This document shows, piece by piece, positions 17,264 through 24,758 of a DNA stretch of 37,690 nt. The translations under genes and the position numbers were made by a program. The number at the start of each line of letters is the position of its first letter. Position 1 is the stretch's first letter. The stretch covers positions 1-37,690 of the forward strand of contig VGPF01000022.1 of NCBI GenBank assembly GCA_016875535.1, read 5' to 3'. The notes beneath the pieces were generated by a model. The model did no database searches. It saw only the letters and a program-made list of their open reading frames with translations, and was not told the DNA's origin. The DNA comes from Chloroflexota bacterium (GTDB lineage: Bacteria > Chloroflexota > Dehalococcoidia > SHYB01).

Positions 17264-17292
17264 TTGACACTGCTATACCCGGCTCCTAGTAT
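17264..17292 (+). promoter_or_regulatory. Promoter of the CoA-transferase operon
   Basis: TTGACA at 17264-17269 is a perfect -35 box, and TAGTAT at 17287-17292 follows after 17 bases. The start of transcription would be near 17299. The promoter covers an in-frame TTG (17264) and ATG (17291), which therefore cannot be used by this transcript, and places the coding start at GTG 17315 or 17321. It is divergent from the pyr promoter, with about 110 bases between the two -35 boxes. Confidence 0.7.
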
Positions 17293-17320
17293 GTGGCGAA
17301 CCTGCCCACCTGAGGTGGTT

Positions 17321-18628
17321 GTGGAACGGCTTCCGCTGCACGGCATCCGCCTCCTGGATATCACCGTTGTTTGGGCAGGGCCCTTCGCCTCGATGATCTT
17401 CGGCGACCTAGGCGCCGAGGTGATCCGCGTGGAATCGGTGACCACGCCGGGACACATGACGCGCGGGCACCCGAACCCCCCGCCGAACGTCATCTCGTCG
17501 CCGCGCGGCGCGTACTACGTGGACCGCGACCCGGGCGAACGCCCCTGGAACCGCTACAGCTATTTCAACTTCGCCGCGCGGCAGAAGCTGGCGGCGACGG
17601 TTGACCTGACGAAGGCGCAGGGGCGCGAGATCATGATGCGCCTCATCGCAACGAGCGATGTGCTCCTGGAGAACAACCGCAACTCCACGCTGAAGAAGCT
17701 GGGCATCGGCTACGACGAAGTGCGGAAGGTAAGGCCGGACATCATCTATCTCTCCGCGCCGGCGTACGGGACCACCGGGCCGTATGCCAACTTCAAGGGC
17801 TTCGGCGCGAACACGGAGGCCGTGGTGGGCCATACATGGCTGCGCGGCTACCCGGATGCGGACCCGAGCATGACCTTTGTGGTCTTCCACAGCGACGCCG
17901 CCGCTGGGGCGAGCGCAGTCTTCGCGCTTGTGGCGGCGCTGGAGCACCGGCGCCGCACCGGGGAGGGACAGTTCATTGACATGTCCCAGGCGGAGAACAT
18001 GATCCCGCACCTGACCCAGGCATTCATGGACTATTCGATGAACGGGCGCTCCCAAACGTCCCTGGGAAACCGCGACACCGCGATGACGCCGCAGGGGGCC
18101 TACAAGGCGAAGGGCGAGGACCAGTGGATCGCCATCTCCATCGAATCGGACGCGCAGTGGGCGGCCTTCTGCGCCACGATAGGCCAACCATCCCTGGCGA
18201 AGGACCTCAGGTTCAAGACGGTGATCGCCCGCAGGCGGAACCACGATGAGCTCGACGGCATCATCGCAGCGTGGACGCAGCAGCACGACGCCTACAAAGC
18301 GCCGGCGACGCTGCAGGCCGCCGGGATCACGGCGATGCCGGTGCTGAAGTACGAAGAGGCGCACTACGACCCGCACCTGACGGAGCGCGGCTTCTACGAG
18401 TTGGTGGCCGAGCCGGATGCGGGCGTCCACCTGCACCCAACGCGCGGCTTCCGCCTATCCGAGACGCCGATTCACGTGCGGTCGCCGGGGCCGATGCTGG
18501 GCGAGCACAACCGCTATGTGTACGGGCATCTGCTTGGCTACAGCGCGGCGGAGATGCGGCGATTCAAGGAGGAGAAGCACATCGGGAAGCGGTATGACGC
18601 AGCGGCCATGACGGTGGGGACATCATGA
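17321..18628 (+). CDS. Class III CoA-transferase, CaiB/BaiF family (first of four)
   Basis: Family III CoA-transferases move CoA between acyl groups through mixed anhydride and thioester intermediates on an active-site Asp. This 435-residue protein starts the domain with GIRLLDITVVWAGPFASMIF, has DLGAEVIRVE, and the catalytic Asp at residue 220 in GEGQFIDMSQAE. It is longer than its three neighbours owing to an extra loop near residues 45-75 (PGHMTRGHPNPPP onward). GTG 17321 was chosen because the promoter overlaps the upstream candidate starts and TGAGG lies five bases before it; GTG 17315 is possible. Its stop overlaps the next start as ATGA. The acyl substrate is not predictable; family members act on carnitine, formate/oxalate, bile acids, benzylsuccinate and others. 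Confidence 0.9.
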   Translation: MERLPLHGIRLLDITVVWAGPFASMIFGDLGAEVIRVESVTTPGHMTRGHPNPPPNVISSPRGAYYVDRDPGERPWNRYSYFNFAARQKLAATVDLTKAQGREIMMRLIATSDVLLENNRNSTLKKLGIGYDEVRKVRPDIIYLSAPAYGTTGPYANFKGFGANTEAVVGHTWLRGYPDADPSMTFVVFHSDAAAGASAVFALVAALEHRRRTGEGQFIDMSQAENMIPHLTQAFMDYSMNGRSQTSLGNRDTAMTPQGAYKAKGEDQWIAISIESDAQWAAFCATIGQPSLAKDLRFKTVIARRRNHDELDGIIAAWTQQHDAYKAPATLQAAGITAMPVLKYEEAHYDPHLTERGFYELVAEPDAGVHLHPTRGFRLSETPIHVRSPGPMLGEHNRYVYGHLLGYSAAEMRRFKEEKHIGKRYDAAAMTVGTS

Positions 18629-19836
18629 CGGCATCGCTGCTTTCGGGCGTGCGCGTGGTTGACCTCACCCAGGGGATCAGCGGCCCGTACTGCACCAAGC
18701 TCCTGGCCGATTACGGCGCAGAGGTGATCAAGATCGAGCGGCCCGGCGTAGGCGATATGATGCGCTCGCGGGGGCCGTTCCCGGGCGATAGACCGCACCA
18801 CGAGACGAGCGGCCTCTTCCTCACGCTCAACACGAGCAAGAAGAGTGTGACGCTCGATCTGAAATCAGAGACGGGGAAGGGCATCCTGCGGCGCCTTATC
18901 GCGTCGGCGGAGATTGTCGTCGAGGGCTTCCGGCCAGGGGCCGCCGAGGCGTTGGGCTTCGGCCCATCGGCGGTGCGCGAGATGAACCCGAAGGCCGTTA
19001 TGACCTCCATCTCCAACTTCGGCCAGTGGGGGCCGTATCGCGACTACCGGGTGACCGAGCTGACAGCCTATGCCATCGGCGCTTCGATGCACTCCACCGG
19101 CGTGCCGGAGCTGGGGCCGTTGAAGCTCGGGGGAACAGTGACGCTCTTCCAGGCGGGGAACCTGGCGGCGGCGGTGACGCTGGCGACGTGGTACGGCGTG
19201 CGCGAGGGAAGCCCAGGCCAGCACATTGATTACTCGATCATGGAGGGACAGCTCGCCTCTCCCGATAGGAATGGGCAGTGCCTATTGGGCATCGCCTACT
19301 CAGGGGATTCGGCCTTCCGCCGGGCGCACTCGCGGCGCTTCACGCTCCTGCCCTTCGGCGCGGGCCCATGCGCGGACGGCTACGCGCACTTCACGGCTGC
19401 GCAGCCGCACTGGTGGTCGCGCTTCTGCCAGATCATAGGCCACCCAGAGCTGATCGCCGACCCGAGGTTCGCGGGGCCGAACTTCTACAACATGGACATG
19501 TTCGATGCGTTCGACGCGTATTTCCTACCCTGGATCCTCTCCAAGACGAAGCGCGAGGTGATGGAAGGGTGCCCGGACGTGGCAGGAACGCCGGTGAACA
19601 CGATGGAAGACCTGTTCAACGATCGGCACTTCCGTGAGCGCGGGGCCTTCGCGGAGATCACGCACCCCATCGCCGGACGCCACACCTACCCAGGCGCGCC
19701 CTTCCGGCCGGCGAAGGCCCCCTGGAAGGCGGCGCCTGCGCCGACCTTGGGCCAGCACAACGAGGAAATCTTGTGCGAGCGGCTGGGGTACGCAAAGCAT
19801 TCCCTGGTCAAGATGGCCCAGGCGGGAGTAGTCTAA
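18625..19836 (+). CDS. Class III CoA-transferase, CaiB/BaiF family (second of four)
   Basis: 403 residues. Domain start GVRVVDLTQGISGPYCTKLL, then DYGAEVIKIERPGVGD, NTSKKSVTLDL, and the catalytic Asp at residue 202 in PGQHIDYSIMEGQL. It keeps the long form of the nucleotide-side loop GVGDMMRSRGPFPGD, which it shares with the third copy but not with the first or fourth. The C-terminal part has the usual PGAPFRPAKAP and LGQHNEEIL signatures, where the partner chain of the interlocked dimer contributes. In place of the usual G-rich loop after the active site it has FGAGPCADGYAHF, with a Cys. Translationally coupled to the first copy by ATGA. Confidence 0.92.
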   Translation: MTASLLSGVRVVDLTQGISGPYCTKLLADYGAEVIKIERPGVGDMMRSRGPFPGDRPHHETSGLFLTLNTSKKSVTLDLKSETGKGILRRLIASAEIVVEGFRPGAAEALGFGPSAVREMNPKAVMTSISNFGQWGPYRDYRVTELTAYAIGASMHSTGVPELGPLKLGGTVTLFQAGNLAAAVTLATWYGVREGSPGQHIDYSIMEGQLASPDRNGQCLLGIAYSGDSAFRRAHSRRFTLLPFGAGPCADGYAHFTAAQPHWWSRFCQIIGHPELIADPRFAGPNFYNMDMFDAFDAYFLPWILSKTKREVMEGCPDVAGTPVNTMEDLFNDRHFRERGAFAEITHPIAGRHTYPGAPFRPAKAPWKAAPAPTLGQHNEEILCERLGYAKHSLVKMAQAGVV

Positions 19837-19861
19837 CCACCACCACCGGCAAAGGATAGCG

Positions 19862-21076
19862 ATGCCCTCGGCACTCAGCGGCCTGAAAATCATCGAGTTC
19901 GGCAGCTTCATCTCGGCCCCGTTCTGCGCCAAGCTGATGGCGGACCTGGGGGCAGAGGTCATTAAGACCGAAGAGCCGAAGGTGGGCGACGATTCGCGGC
20001 GCTTCGGGCCCTTCCCAGGCGATATCCCCCACCTGGAGAAGAGCGGCCTCTTCCTCTATATGAACGCCAACAAGCGCGGCATCACGGTGAACCCGCGCAC
20101 CGCGACGGGCCTGGACATCATCAAAGCCCTCATCGCCGATGCGGATGTGCTCATCGAAAACCAGCAGCCGGGGGTGATGCGCGAGCTGGGGCTGGACTAC
20201 GAACGGCTGGAGCGGATCAACCCGCGCCTGGTGATGACTTCGATCTCAACCTTTGGGCAGACGGGGCCGTACAAAGATTACAAGGGATACGACATGACGG
20301 CGTGGCACGGCTCGGGGGTCGGCCCCCGATTCGCGGGCCGCGAGAAAGAGGAGCCGCTGCGCGGCGCGTGGTACCACGCCGACCACTGGGGCGCGATCAG
20401 CGCGGCAACGGCGACGATGCTGGCCCTGGCGGCGCGTGACCTGACAGGCGAAGGGCAGCTGGTGGACCTTTCCCAGGTGGAATGCCTGGCCACGCACATC
20501 CTGGGCTACCAACTGGTCACGCTCTACCACCTTACGGGGGAGACCTCCTCCCGCGCGGGGGACATCCTGCGCGGCGGCGCCCCCGCGGGGCTCTTCAAGA
20601 CGAAGGACGGCTTCATGTGCCTCCTGGTGATGGAGGACCAGCAGTGGGTGGGGATCAAGCGCGCCATGGGAAACCCCCAGTGGACGGAGGACCCGGTCTT
20701 CAACGTACCCTCGTGGCAGCGCGCGGAGGTGGCGGACATGATGTACGAGCTGATGGACCCCTGGTGGAAATCGCACACGAACGATGAGCTTTTCCAGATG
20801 CTCCAGGCGGAGCGCGTGCCCGCAGGGCCGCTCTACACGCCGAAGGACCTGCTGCACCACCCGCACTTGGAGGCTCGCGGCTTTTTCCAAGAGGTCGCGC
20901 ACCCGAAGGCCGGGACGGTTCGGATGCCGGGCGCGCCCTACCGCTTTTCGGAGACGCCGTGGCGCATCCAACGGCCTGCGCCGATGCTGGGAGCGCACAA
21001 CAAGGAAATCCTGAGCGGCCTCCTGGGCTTCAGCGGCGTGGACCTCACCGATATGCGAAGGACGGGCATCATCTGA
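19862..21076 (+). CDS. Class III CoA-transferase, CaiB/BaiF family (third of four)
   Basis: 404 residues. Starts GLKIIEFGSFISAPFCAKLM, with DLGAEVIKTEEP, NANKRGITVNPRT and the catalytic Asp at residue 202 in GEGQLVDLSQVECL. The loop KVGDDSRRFGPFPGD parallels the second copy, suggesting these two are the closer pair. The C-terminal region shows MPGAPYRFSETPW and LGAHNKEILSGLLG. AAAGGA about eight bases before the ATG serves as ribosome binding site; the gap after the second gene is 25 bases. The four copies differ enough throughout to be old paralogues rather than recent duplicates, so different acyl acceptors or heteromeric pairing are possible. Confidence 0.92.
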   Translation: MPSALSGLKIIEFGSFISAPFCAKLMADLGAEVIKTEEPKVGDDSRRFGPFPGDIPHLEKSGLFLYMNANKRGITVNPRTATGLDIIKALIADADVLIENQQPGVMRELGLDYERLERINPRLVMTSISTFGQTGPYKDYKGYDMTAWHGSGVGPRFAGREKEEPLRGAWYHADHWGAISAATATMLALAARDLTGEGQLVDLSQVECLATHILGYQLVTLYHLTGETSSRAGDILRGGAPAGLFKTKDGFMCLLVMEDQQWVGIKRAMGNPQWTEDPVFNVPSWQRAEVADMMYELMDPWWKSHTNDELFQMLQAERVPAGPLYTPKDLLHHPHLEARGFFQEVAHPKAGTVRMPGAPYRFSETPWRIQRPAPMLGAHNKEILSGLLGFSGVDLTDMRRTGII

Positions 21077-21089
21077 TGGAGCCGACACG

Positions 21090-22298
21090 ATGACACGCTA
21101 TCCCCTGGCGAACCTGCGCGTGGTGAACTTCGGCTGGGTGTGGGCCGCGCCCATCCTGGGAACGACCCTGGCCGATATGGGCGCCGAGGTCATCAAGATC
21201 GAGACGAAGAAGCGCCCGGATATCATCCGGCTGCTGCCGCCGCTGCTGAAAGATCAGCCGTACGAAGCGCTCTACGCGCACAATACGCTGCGCAACAACT
21301 ACGGCGTCAGCCTGGACCTTAAGGACAAACGCGGCTTCGCCATGGCGCAGGACTTAGTGCGCTCGGCGGACGTAGTCATAGAGAACTTCTCGCCGGGGTT
21401 CATGGAGTCCCTCGGCCTGGGCTATGCAGGCCTCCGCAAACTGCGACCGGACGTGGTGATGATTTCCCTTTCCGCCGCAGGACAGACGGGGCCGCTCCAC
21501 AATATCGTCACCTACGGCAACATCATCAGCTGCCTCGCGAGCCTTGACGGCTACCAGGGATACATCGGCGAAGACAGGCCGATGCGCTACGGCACCACGA
21601 TCCCTGACCCCTTGATGGGCATCTACGGGGCCTTCGCGGTGCTGACGGCGCTGCGCCACCGGGCGAAGACGGGGAAGGGCCAGTATATTGATCTGGGCCA
21701 GTGGGAGGCGGGCGTCACCATGGCAAGCGGGCCGATGATTGACTACGCGATGAACGGGCGCATCCAGCGGTGGCGCGGAAACCGGGATGAGATGCTGGCG
21801 CCCCACGGCTGTTACAAATGCGCCGGGGACGACGACTGGCTCACCATCGCGGTGAAGACGGACGAAGAGTGGCACGCGCTCTGCGAGGTGATGGGCCGAG
21901 AAGACATGGCGAATGACGAGCGCTACGGCGACCTGTACGGCAGGCAGATGCATCACGATGCAATTGACGCGGCCATCCGGGAGTGGGCGAAGGGCCAAGA
22001 GCATTACGCCGCCGGGGCGATGCTGCAAGCGAAGGGCGTGGCCGCCTTCCCGGCGCTCAGCATCCAGGAGACCTTTCTGGACAAACATTTCAACGCGCGC
22101 AACAATTGGGTGGAAGTGGAGCACCGCCTAGGGCGCGAGACGATCGCCGGAATGCCGTGGCGGCTCTCCAAGACGCCCGGGGGCGTCCGGCGGGCCGCGC
22201 CGAGCATCGGCCAGGACAACCACAAAATCTTCTGTGACGTCCTGGGCATGGCCCCGGAGCGCGTCACGATACTCGAACAGGAAAAGGTCCTTTACTAA
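21090..22298 (+). CDS. Class III CoA-transferase, CaiB/BaiF family (fourth of four)
   Basis: 402 residues. Starts LANLRVVNFGWVWAAPILG, with DMGAEVIKIETKKRPD and the catalytic Asp at residue 201 in GKGQYIDLGQWEAG. The N-terminal WVWAAP and the later DYAMNGRIQRWRGNRDEMLA resemble the first copy (DYSMNGRSQTSLGNRDTAM), so the set may be two subgroups, first plus fourth and second plus third. It has the usual end MPWRLSKTPG and IGQDNHKIF. It starts 13 bases after the third copy and is followed by the ligase-like gene after one base. Confidence 0.92.
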   Translation: MTRYPLANLRVVNFGWVWAAPILGTTLADMGAEVIKIETKKRPDIIRLLPPLLKDQPYEALYAHNTLRNNYGVSLDLKDKRGFAMAQDLVRSADVVIENFSPGFMESLGLGYAGLRKLRPDVVMISLSAAGQTGPLHNIVTYGNIISCLASLDGYQGYIGEDRPMRYGTTIPDPLMGIYGAFAVLTALRHRAKTGKGQYIDLGQWEAGVTMASGPMIDYAMNGRIQRWRGNRDEMLAPHGCYKCAGDDDWLTIAVKTDEEWHALCEVMGREDMANDERYGDLYGRQMHHDAIDAAIREWAKGQEHYAAGAMLQAKGVAAFPALSIQETFLDKHFNARNNWVEVEHRLGRETIAGMPWRLSKTPGGVRRAAPSIGQDNHKIFCDVLGMAPERVTILEQEKVLY

Positions 22299-22299
22299 C

Positions 22300-23328
22300 G
22301 TGCCGCAGCAGCTATCACCCCTCGCCGTGCGCCAGACTGCCTTCGCGCTGGCCGGCCTTCCCGCCGGCATCAAGCCGATGCTCGCCACACCATCGTTCGA
22401 GCCCTTCGATTCGCCGAAGTGGATCTTCGAGCCGTTGCGCGGCGGCCTCCGCGCCATCGCCTACTTCGACCACGGGACGATGCGGCTCCAGATAGGCGAG
22501 GACGGCAGGTTGGCAGAGGCCTTCCCGGAGATCACCGATGGGCTCACGGAGGCGGTCACGATTGACGGCGTCGTGCTGGATGGCGAGCTGGTCGCGCGGG
22601 ACAGGTTGGGCATGCCGAACGTCGCCCTGGTGCTGGAGCGCCTCAAGCCGGGGAATCGCAGGCGGTCGCGCGCGCCGCTGACCTTTCATGTGTGGGACAT
22701 CCTCTACCACGGCTACCGCCCGGTGCTGGAGAAGCCCCTGGCGAAGCGGAAGGAGCTTCTGCTCGGCGCGGTGCGCGCCACGGAGGCCGTGCAGCCGACG
22801 CTCACCCGGGAGACGGACGGCGTGGCGCTCTATGAGGCGGCGGTGGCCCTCGGGATGGAGGGCGTCGTCGCGAAGCACCGGGAGAGCCTCTACGTTCCAG
22901 GCAGGCGCAGCCGCCACTGGGTGGCGATACGGGAGCGGCGCTCGGCGGACGCGGTGATCGCGGGGTACACGATGGCAAGCGGACGCGGGCAGAAGGGCTT
23001 CGAGAGCCTGCTCCTTGGCGTCTATCAGGGAAAGCGATTGCGCTACGCGGGTTCTGTCTCAGGCGGATTCGACAAAGCCTCCCGCGACGAACTTTCAGCC
23101 CTGCTGCCGCAGCTCCAGTCAGATTCCTGCCCGTTCGGGAGGGCGCCCCGGATCGGCAAGCTGCTGTATTGGTGCAAGCCACAAGCCGTCGCGCACGTGC
23201 TTTTCGGCGAGCTGAACGATAGGGGCGAGTTCATCTTTCCGAAGTTCTCGGGCCTGCGTCGCGATCTGCAGGCGAGCGATTGCACGATGCCCATGGAGCG
23301 CGCCACAGGCGCACGGCGCAGAGGCTAA
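22300..23328 (+). CDS. ATP-dependent DNA-ligase-like protein lacking the catalytic lysine
   Basis: 342 residues with the fold order of a LigD-type ligase: adenylation domain (about 25-215) then OB domain (about 216-325). Motif III LDGELV (93-98), the F-x-x-WDILY segment (129-136) and motif IV MEGVVAK (186-192) are clear. Motif I, normally E-x-K-x-DG-x-R, reads EPLRGGLR at 44-51: the nucleotidylated Lys is Leu46 (TTG at 22435-22437) and the Asp is Gly48. Motif V, normally W-x-K-x-K, reads WVAIR (207-211). The OB part ends with FPKFSGLRRD. Adenylation should therefore be impossible, while the rest of the frame is intact, suggesting a pseudoenzyme with a DNA- or protein-binding role. No Ku or polymerase domain is adjacent. 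GTG 22300 follows the fourth CoA-transferase stop by one base. Confidence 0.82.
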   Translation: MPQQLSPLAVRQTAFALAGLPAGIKPMLATPSFEPFDSPKWIFEPLRGGLRAIAYFDHGTMRLQIGEDGRLAEAFPEITDGLTEAVTIDGVVLDGELVARDRLGMPNVALVLERLKPGNRRRSRAPLTFHVWDILYHGYRPVLEKPLAKRKELLLGAVRATEAVQPTLTRETDGVALYEAAVALGMEGVVAKHRESLYVPGRRSRHWVAIRERRSADAVIAGYTMASGRGQKGFESLLLGVYQGKRLRYAGSVSGGFDKASRDELSALLPQLQSDSCPFGRAPRIGKLLYWCKPQAVAHVLFGELNDRGEFIFPKFSGLRRDLQASDCTMPMERATGARRRG

Positions 23329-24758
23329 AGCCCCAGCGCGCGGGTGGCCTGCTCGATGAGGGTGAGCATCGGCCCAGGGTAGACGCCGAAGAAGAGGGTG
23401 GCGAAGCCAAGGGCCGCCACGACGCCCCCGATGGGAAGCGTGAGCCTGAGCGGGGCGCCCTCGGCCGGCTCTTCCATGTAGATGGCCTTGATGACCATCA
23501 GGTAGTAATAGAGCGACACGAGACTGCCCAGCGTCGCGATGATGACCAGCCAGAGCAGGCCTGCGTCGGCGGCGGCGGTGAAGAGGTAGAACTTCGTCGC
23601 GAAGCCCGCAAAGACCGGCAGGCCCGCCAGGGAGAACATGCCTGCGCTCATGACCAGGGCCAGGAAGGGCTGACGCTTCGCTAGGCCCTTGAAGTCGTCT
23701 ATCAGCTCCTTGCCTGTCAGATTCTCATAGGCGATGACACAGGCGAAGACGGCGAAGTTGGCGGCGGAATACCCGATGAGGTGGAAGACAAGGCCGTTGG
23801 CGGCCAGGGGTGAAAAGGCGGCGATGCCCATCAGGAGATAGCCTGCGTTGCCGATGCTGGAATAGGCGAGCATGCGCTTGATGTTGGCCTGCGCCGTGGC
23901 CACCAGGTTACCGAGGAGGATACTCGCAGCAGCCAGGCCCGCCACGATGGGTCGCCAATCATCCAGCGCAGGGCCGAAGGCCAGGGAGAAGAGGCGCAGA
24001 AGCAGGGCGAAGCTCACGGCCTTGGAGACGACCGCCAGGTAGCCGGTCACCGGAGTCGGCGCGCCTTCATAGACATCGGGCGCCCACATGTGGAAGGGGA
24101 CGGCCGTGACCTTGAAGCCGAAGCCGACGAGGACGAGGACGATGCCCGCGACCAAGGCGATCTGCGAATCGGCCCCGCTGTCCAGCGCAGCGGCGATCTC
24201 CGCGAAGACCGTCGTGCCCGTCGCGCCATAGATGAGACTGATGCCGTAAAGGAGCATCGCGGAGGAGAAGGCGCCGATCAGGATGTATTTGATGCCCGCT
24301 TCGACGGACTTGGGGCGGGTAAAGTTATATCCGGCAAGGATGTAGAGACAGAAGCTGAAAAGCTCCAGGGAGATGTAGGCGGTGAGCAGCTCTCCGGCGG
24401 AGACCATCGCCATCATCGCGAGGATGGAGAAGAGGAGGAGGCCGTAGAACTCGCCGGGATGAGTGAGCTTGACGCGAACGTGCTCCACGGAGGCCAGCAC
24501 CATGGATGCGCCCGCCGTCAAGAGGAAGATCTTGAAGAAGGCGGCGTAGCGGTCTATAAGGAAGAGGCCGCCGTACTGCTCGGCATCCTCGCCTGCCACA
24601 GGGAAGACGGTCGCGATGGCGCCGAGTATGCCGGCCAAAGCGAGGTAGGCGAGCCAGTGCTTCCGCTCTTCCCGCAGGAAGAGATCGGCCGCCATCACCA
24701 GCAGGGCGACGCCCGCCATGGTGAACTCCGGGATGAAGAGTGAGAAGTCAACGTTCAT
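23325..24758 (-). CDS. nuoN: NADH-quinone oxidoreductase-type complex I, subunit N
   Basis: Antiporter-like membrane subunit nearest the quinone module, 477 residues with about 14 membrane helices. The TM5 Glu is present in AYISLELFSFCLYILAGY, the TM7 Lys in GFGFKVTAVPFHMWAPDVY, and a TM8 Lys in VVSKAVSF, all needed for proton movement in characterised enzymes. APTPVTGYL is the family signature after TM7. ATG 24758 overlaps the nuoM stop by four bases. The stop codon at 23325-23327 overlaps the stop of the converging ligase-like gene in a CTAA, leaving no room for separate terminators. Confidence 0.95.
   Translation of the reverse strand: MNVDFSLFIPEFTMAGVALLVMAADLFLREERKHWLAYLALAGILGAIATVFPVAGEDAEQYGGLFLIDRYAAFFKIFLLTAGASMVLASVEHVRVKLTHPGEFYGLLLFSILAMMAMVSAGELLTAYISLELFSFCLYILAGYNFTRPKSVEAGIKYILIGAFSSAMLLYGISLIYGATGTTVFAEIAAALDSGADSQIALVAGIVLVLVGFGFKVTAVPFHMWAPDVYEGAPTPVTGYLAVVSKAVSFALLLRLFSLAFGPALDDWRPIVAGLAAASILLGNLVATAQANIKRMLAYSSIGNAGYLLMGIAAFSPLAANGLVFHLIGYSAANFAVFACVIAYENLTGKELIDDFKGLAKRQPFLALVMSAGMFSLAGLPVFAGFATKFYLFTAAADAGLLWLVIIATLGSLVSLYYYLMVIKAIYMEEPAEGAPLRLTLPIGGVVAALGFATLFFGVYPGPMLTLIEQATRALGL

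Follow-up and report, generated by a model that had tools for sequence, protein, structure and literature searches.

The gene described here raises the question of what a DNA ligase-like protein is for once its catalytic lysine has been replaced, and of where such a protein comes from. The gene lies on the forward strand of the window, by which we mean the whole 37,690-nucleotide stretch of Chloroflexota DNA that was analyzed, at positions 22300-23328. Its frame is intact and long, as the initial annotation had described: 342 codons without an internal stop run from a GTG start at 22300 to a stop codon at 23326-23328.

Fold and active site of the window protein

The 342-amino-acid product is a stand-alone protein with a nucleotidyltransferase domain (residues 34-208, 22399-22923; PF01068, E = 1.5e-19, and the structure model) followed by an OB-fold domain (residues 231-322, 22990-23265; PF04679, E = 2.1e-18). 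Scores of 71 bits for PF01068 (curated cut-off 26.2) and 67 bits for PF04679 (cut-off 27.5) identify an ATP-dependent DNA ligase fold, in agreement with the initial annotation. The score against the NHEJ ligase model TIGR02779 is 191.3 bits, under the curated cut-off of 227.75, and the protein consists of LIG and OB only, with no polymerase domain, so it is not a DNA ligase D. Among solved structures, those closest in sequence are entries for the Mycobacterium tuberculosis LigD ligase domain. An AlphaFold2 model built from 31 family sequences (mean pLDDT 89.1, pTM 0.79) matches ATP-dependent DNA ligases, including that of P. furiosus (2cfm; VIA Z 33.9, 327 aligned, rmsd 5.4) and LigD (6nhz; VIA Z 26.4, 299 residues aligned, rmsd 6.3); the high rmsd values probably reflect domain movement. 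The alignment and the model also place a helix with the pattern RQ.AF.L at residues 7-18 (22318-22353), where model confidence is low. This helix is common to the three pseudoligases of the window's family (the window protein, L036 and L037) and is absent from the Ku-coupled sister L111; it is possible that it forms a new contact surface.

We mapped the active site by alignment to M. tuberculosis LigD, taking its sites from PMC8656161, and scored eleven of them, at which all 39 of the full-length LigD ligase domains compared read EKDRREEKRKK. Motif I of the window protein (22429-22452) reads EPLRGGLR, with LRGG in place of the KxDG of an active ligase. The nucleophile of LigD, K481 (PMC8656161), is replaced by Leu46 (ttg, 22435-22437), the following codon is Arg47 (cgc), and D483 is replaced by Gly48 (ggc, 22441-22443), exactly as the initial annotation had read the motif; E44 and R51 are kept. 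Gly66 (22495-22497) stands in place of R501, which in LigD contacts the ATP gamma-phosphate and ribose (PMC8656161). The same annotation held that the motif V lysines were gone, and both are indeed replaced (22924-22932): K635 by A209 and K637 by R211, the latter a conservative change. The residues corresponding to E479, R486, E530, E613, K618 and R629 are retained, among them Glu96 (E530; 22585-22587) in a motif III that reads VVLDGEL, and Glu187 (E613) and Lys192 (K618) in a motif IV that reads MEGVVAK (22858-22875). Nick sealing by LigD is lost with E613A or K637A and lowered with R501A (PMC8656161). Judged from this alignment, the window protein lacks residues needed to seal DNA and is predicted to be inactive as a ligase. 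We dropped the loss of the motif VI lysine as a sign of inactivation, since many intact LigDs also lack that lysine.

A sequencing error at 22435-22443 is excluded because EPLRGGLR recurs in an independent genome of the same genus (G001; L002/L008), whose protein is 71-72% identical to that of the window (71% over 342 codons). In a genome of the same family (G003; 42% identity), motif I reads EGLWGGLR and K635 is also missing. The differences between the window gene and its counterpart in G001 amount to 0.20, 0.15 and 0.53 at the first, second and third codon positions, respectively, and the NG86 estimates of 0.21 for dN and 1.32 for dS give a ratio of 0.16, which is rough since dS is near saturation. 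A ratio this far under 1 clearly indicates purifying selection. The initial annotation's suggestion of a selected pseudoenzyme is thus borne out by the conserved motif change, the low dN/dS, the confident ligase fold and active-site losses across the family. We conclude that the window protein is a pseudoenzyme, a reading well supported by the conserved loss of essential catalytic residues in a fold that is under selection.

Ancestry among Ku-coupled stand-alone ligases

We searched 393 genomes of the window's class and 400 of the phylum Chloroflexota with profiles and recovered stand-alone members of approximately 330-400 amino acids. Within the class, these stand-alone LIG proteins form one group in the tree. 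Most of its members follow Ku immediately, the two genes often sharing 4 bases, or occupy one locus with LigD and Ku; in most loci the Ku stop codon overlaps the ligase start or lies within approximately 35 bases of it. The identity of Ku was checked by Pfam on four of the Ku-coupled loci. An apparent Ku-ligase fusion in L092 was rejected, as it is only an open upstream frame and Ku lies in another frame. The window protein groups with the Ku-coupled stand-alone LIG proteins in both of the trees built, with node support of 97/87 when the intact L111 is included and 100/99 for sets of 8 and 10 rows. L111 (G060), intact and Ku-coupled, is its closest outside relative. Tree and gene order together show that the window protein descends from the stand-alone ligase of a Ku-ligase operon, and the origin of the window gene therefore lies in DNA end joining. 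Far from being the isolated oddity that it first appeared to be, the protein belongs to a family of mostly inactivated, Ku-coupled stand-alone ligases.

Nearly all of the stand-alone LIG proteins of the class have lost essential active-site residues, and they have done so by differing routes. Only L039 (G038) and L111 keep all scored sites; no LigD polymerase domain was found in G038, and G060, which is only 63% complete, has a separate polymerase-domain frame nearby. The L111 locus looks like a split LigD: the polymerase-domain frame, the Ku gene and the intact stand-alone ligase gene all run on the same strand (L111:3398-5353; G060:C165:5592-6311). Of the 30-31 rows of this group in the class tree, 17 have lost K481, which takes 6 changes on the tree under a parsimony label count that allows reversal. 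Other class members keep the motif I lysine and lose the motif IV glutamate (His in family f50) or the motif V lysines. The f50 members L090, L103, L104, L105, L115, L087 and L162 are Ku-coupled or orphan with His for the motif IV Glu (LHG), and most f50 LHG ligases keep the motif I lysine, which makes this a second way of becoming inactive. Family f113, elsewhere in the phylum, has Ala for the motif I Lys in its Ku-coupled stand-alone proteins L157, L158 and L159, and its full-length LigDs are intact. Repeated independent loss of the active site appears to be the simpler reading, because several residues are lost together and the combinations differ between lineages (LG..AR, MG..ER, KE.H and AD..RR). 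Such loss does not always follow: f116, another phylum family, has second ligase-domain proteins, yet the active site is intact in most of its Ku-coupled copies. We accordingly did not keep a rule that loss follows whenever a second ligase is present.

Among the pseudoligases, conservation is 0.62 in the catalytic columns versus 0.77 in the other LigD-invariant columns, which is not significantly lower (one-sided p 0.06). A contrast noticed after this test lies between the phosphate contacts (K481 0.38, D483 0.14, K635 0.07, K637 0.31) and the adenosine contacts (E479 1.0, R486 1.0, K618 0.97).

The retained residues bear on the possibility that the window protein is still an active nucleotidyltransferase, working through another residue or by a non-covalent route, for example on pre-adenylated DNA. 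The steps of ligase chemistry that follow adenylation do not use lysine as a nucleophile, and E530, E613, K618, R486 and R629 are in place, with Arg at K637, so that some unusual nucleotide chemistry is conceivable. However, the search for an active-site lysine elsewhere in the pocket found none that is conserved in the family by alignment; the sole pocket lysine of the window protein, K192, is Arg in G003. R501 and K635 are lost as well, and E613 itself is lost elsewhere in the group. We therefore consider continued catalysis unlikely.

Orphan state and gene neighborhood

We found no Ku in the window genome, which is 98.4% complete, and no match to the LigD polymerase domain model (ligD_pol); the window gene is thus not itself Ku-coupled. 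The genome has an NAD-dependent LigA, and a search of the genome with the window protein returns only the window gene. Ku was also not found in G001, G003, G032, G071 or G211; several lineages thus carry a pseudoligase but no Ku. Ku and LigD have been lost from the window's lineage, leaving an orphaned pseudoligase. An orphan-type pair in another family (L087/L162) is likewise under purifying selection, with dS saturated; of the two, L087 was covered by a genome-wide Ku search.

This orphan state would also be expected of a slowly decaying remnant that has had no function since its partners were lost and has had too little time to decay. Consistent with such a remnant, the protein diverges faster than the product of the neighboring nuoN gene between the window genome and G001 (71% versus 87% identity), and the gene is absent from G002, a third genus of the family. 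Against it, the frame is intact in the window genome, G001 and G003 even where protein identity falls to 42%; third codon positions account for most of the changes, with dN/dS well under 1; and orphans are intact in further lineages (G032, G071 and G211). Slow decay seems to us quite improbable, and we retain the reading of a selected orphan.

The gene begins one base past the stop codon of the fourth of four consecutive CoA-transferase genes (17264-22298), a spacing that had been reported correctly, and its last 4 bases overlap a convergent nuoN-like gene (Proton_antipo_M; 23325-24758, reverse strand) that lies outside the system. The upstream CoA-transferase family III gene (21090-22298, forward strand) is probably co-transcribed with the pseudoligase and is the only one of the four clearly kept in place in G001, at 75.6% identity over the last 45 residues, where the contig starts. 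In G003, a gene for a DUF6282 protein (L037:1234-2112) ends 10 bases upstream of the pseudoligase. The initial annotation considered the position behind the CoA-transferase genes an unexpected place for DNA repair. These neighbors are real, but they are weak evidence of a functional link, because 109 hits to the CoA_transf_3 domain (PF02515) in 2.5 Mb make such neighbors common in the window genome. CoA-transferase genes in this genome often occur in tandem pairs. A new role away from DNA, such as sensing adenine nucleotides or CoA with the half of the pocket that binds adenosine and is retained, would fit the one-base spacing, the presence of CoA-transferases beside the gene in G001 and G003 and the loss of phosphate contacts with adenosine contacts kept, but it is very unlikely given how common such neighbors are, that they lie on the opposite side in G003, that the agreement between the window genome and G001 is plain genus synteny and that the neighbors in G032 differ. 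An anti-phage defense role was rejected, as PADLOC gave no match.

Proposed role and comparison with known systems

We propose that, mostly in genomes with a full-length LigD as well, the Ku-coupled ligase of the family ceased to ligate and became a non-catalytic subunit. Ku would place the pseudoligase on a broken end, the pseudoligase would clamp and align the ends, and the real ligase would then seal them. Ku and LigD were then lost in the window's lineage. The orphan, still under purifying selection, would continue to bind DNA ends, nicks or adenylated DNA but perform no covalent chemistry, which is the least certain step. An end-joining role cannot apply as such in the window genome, because Ku and the LigD polymerase domain are missing from it. 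Coupled members may bind Ku, as in M. tuberculosis, where the Ku core makes direct contact with the LIG domain (PMC9638933), and the orphan may have kept residual binding of DNA or adenosine. Most likely, the family contributes to Ku-dependent end joining as a subunit that binds ends without catalysis, and the window protein probably has a structural, non-enzymatic job. Taken as a whole, the explanation that this is a dead LIG+OB protein of Ku-operon descent, a former ligase turned subunit that survives as an orphan by its binding, has in our judgment about an even chance of being right. Our broader proposal is more tentative and may well be wrong: that a dedicated ligase paralogue, recurrently inactivated, works in the end joining of a large branch of the Chloroflexota as a structural subunit bound to Ku, and that it can persist after Ku and LigD are gone by binding DNA ends, nicks or adenylated DNA on its own.

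In the usual description, bacterial end joining takes two proteins, Ku and LigD. Recurrent inactivation of a ligase encoded behind Ku suggests a further component with no enzymatic activity, and the literature that we searched yielded no description of a natural Ku-coupled inactive bacterial ligase. Such a component would correspond in nature to inactive human DNA ligase IV, for which a structural role has been shown. In cells, inactive Lig4 (K273A) promotes end joining, and it also stimulates Lig3 (PMC9638927); the binding of Lig4 to DNA ends is required for short-range synapsis (PMC10858965). Dead Lig4 is a precedent for structural support of end joining by an inactive ligase. Human Lig4, however, is naturally active and its dead form is engineered, whereas inactivity in the window's family is natural and recurrent.

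Compared with the LIG domain of M. tuberculosis LigD (PDB 1VS0, 6NHZ), the window protein has the same nucleotidyltransferase and OB fold and length, approximately 29% identity, and motifs III and IV; it differs in having no POL or phosphoesterase domain, in the loss of the nucleophilic Lys, the motif I Asp, R501 and K635, and in the change of K637 to Arg. It resembles LigC-type stand-alone ligases in being a single LIG+OB protein with no POL or PE domain. LigC, however, is active, whereas the Ku-coupled group is mostly inactivated and forms its own branch in trees that contain no LigC reference. The intact Ku-coupled stand-alone ligases (L111, L039 and those of f116) have the same gene order behind Ku as the rest of the group and, unlike the window protein, intact active sites. 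Because active and inactive members share this gene order, they offer natural material for separating the holding of DNA ends from their sealing.
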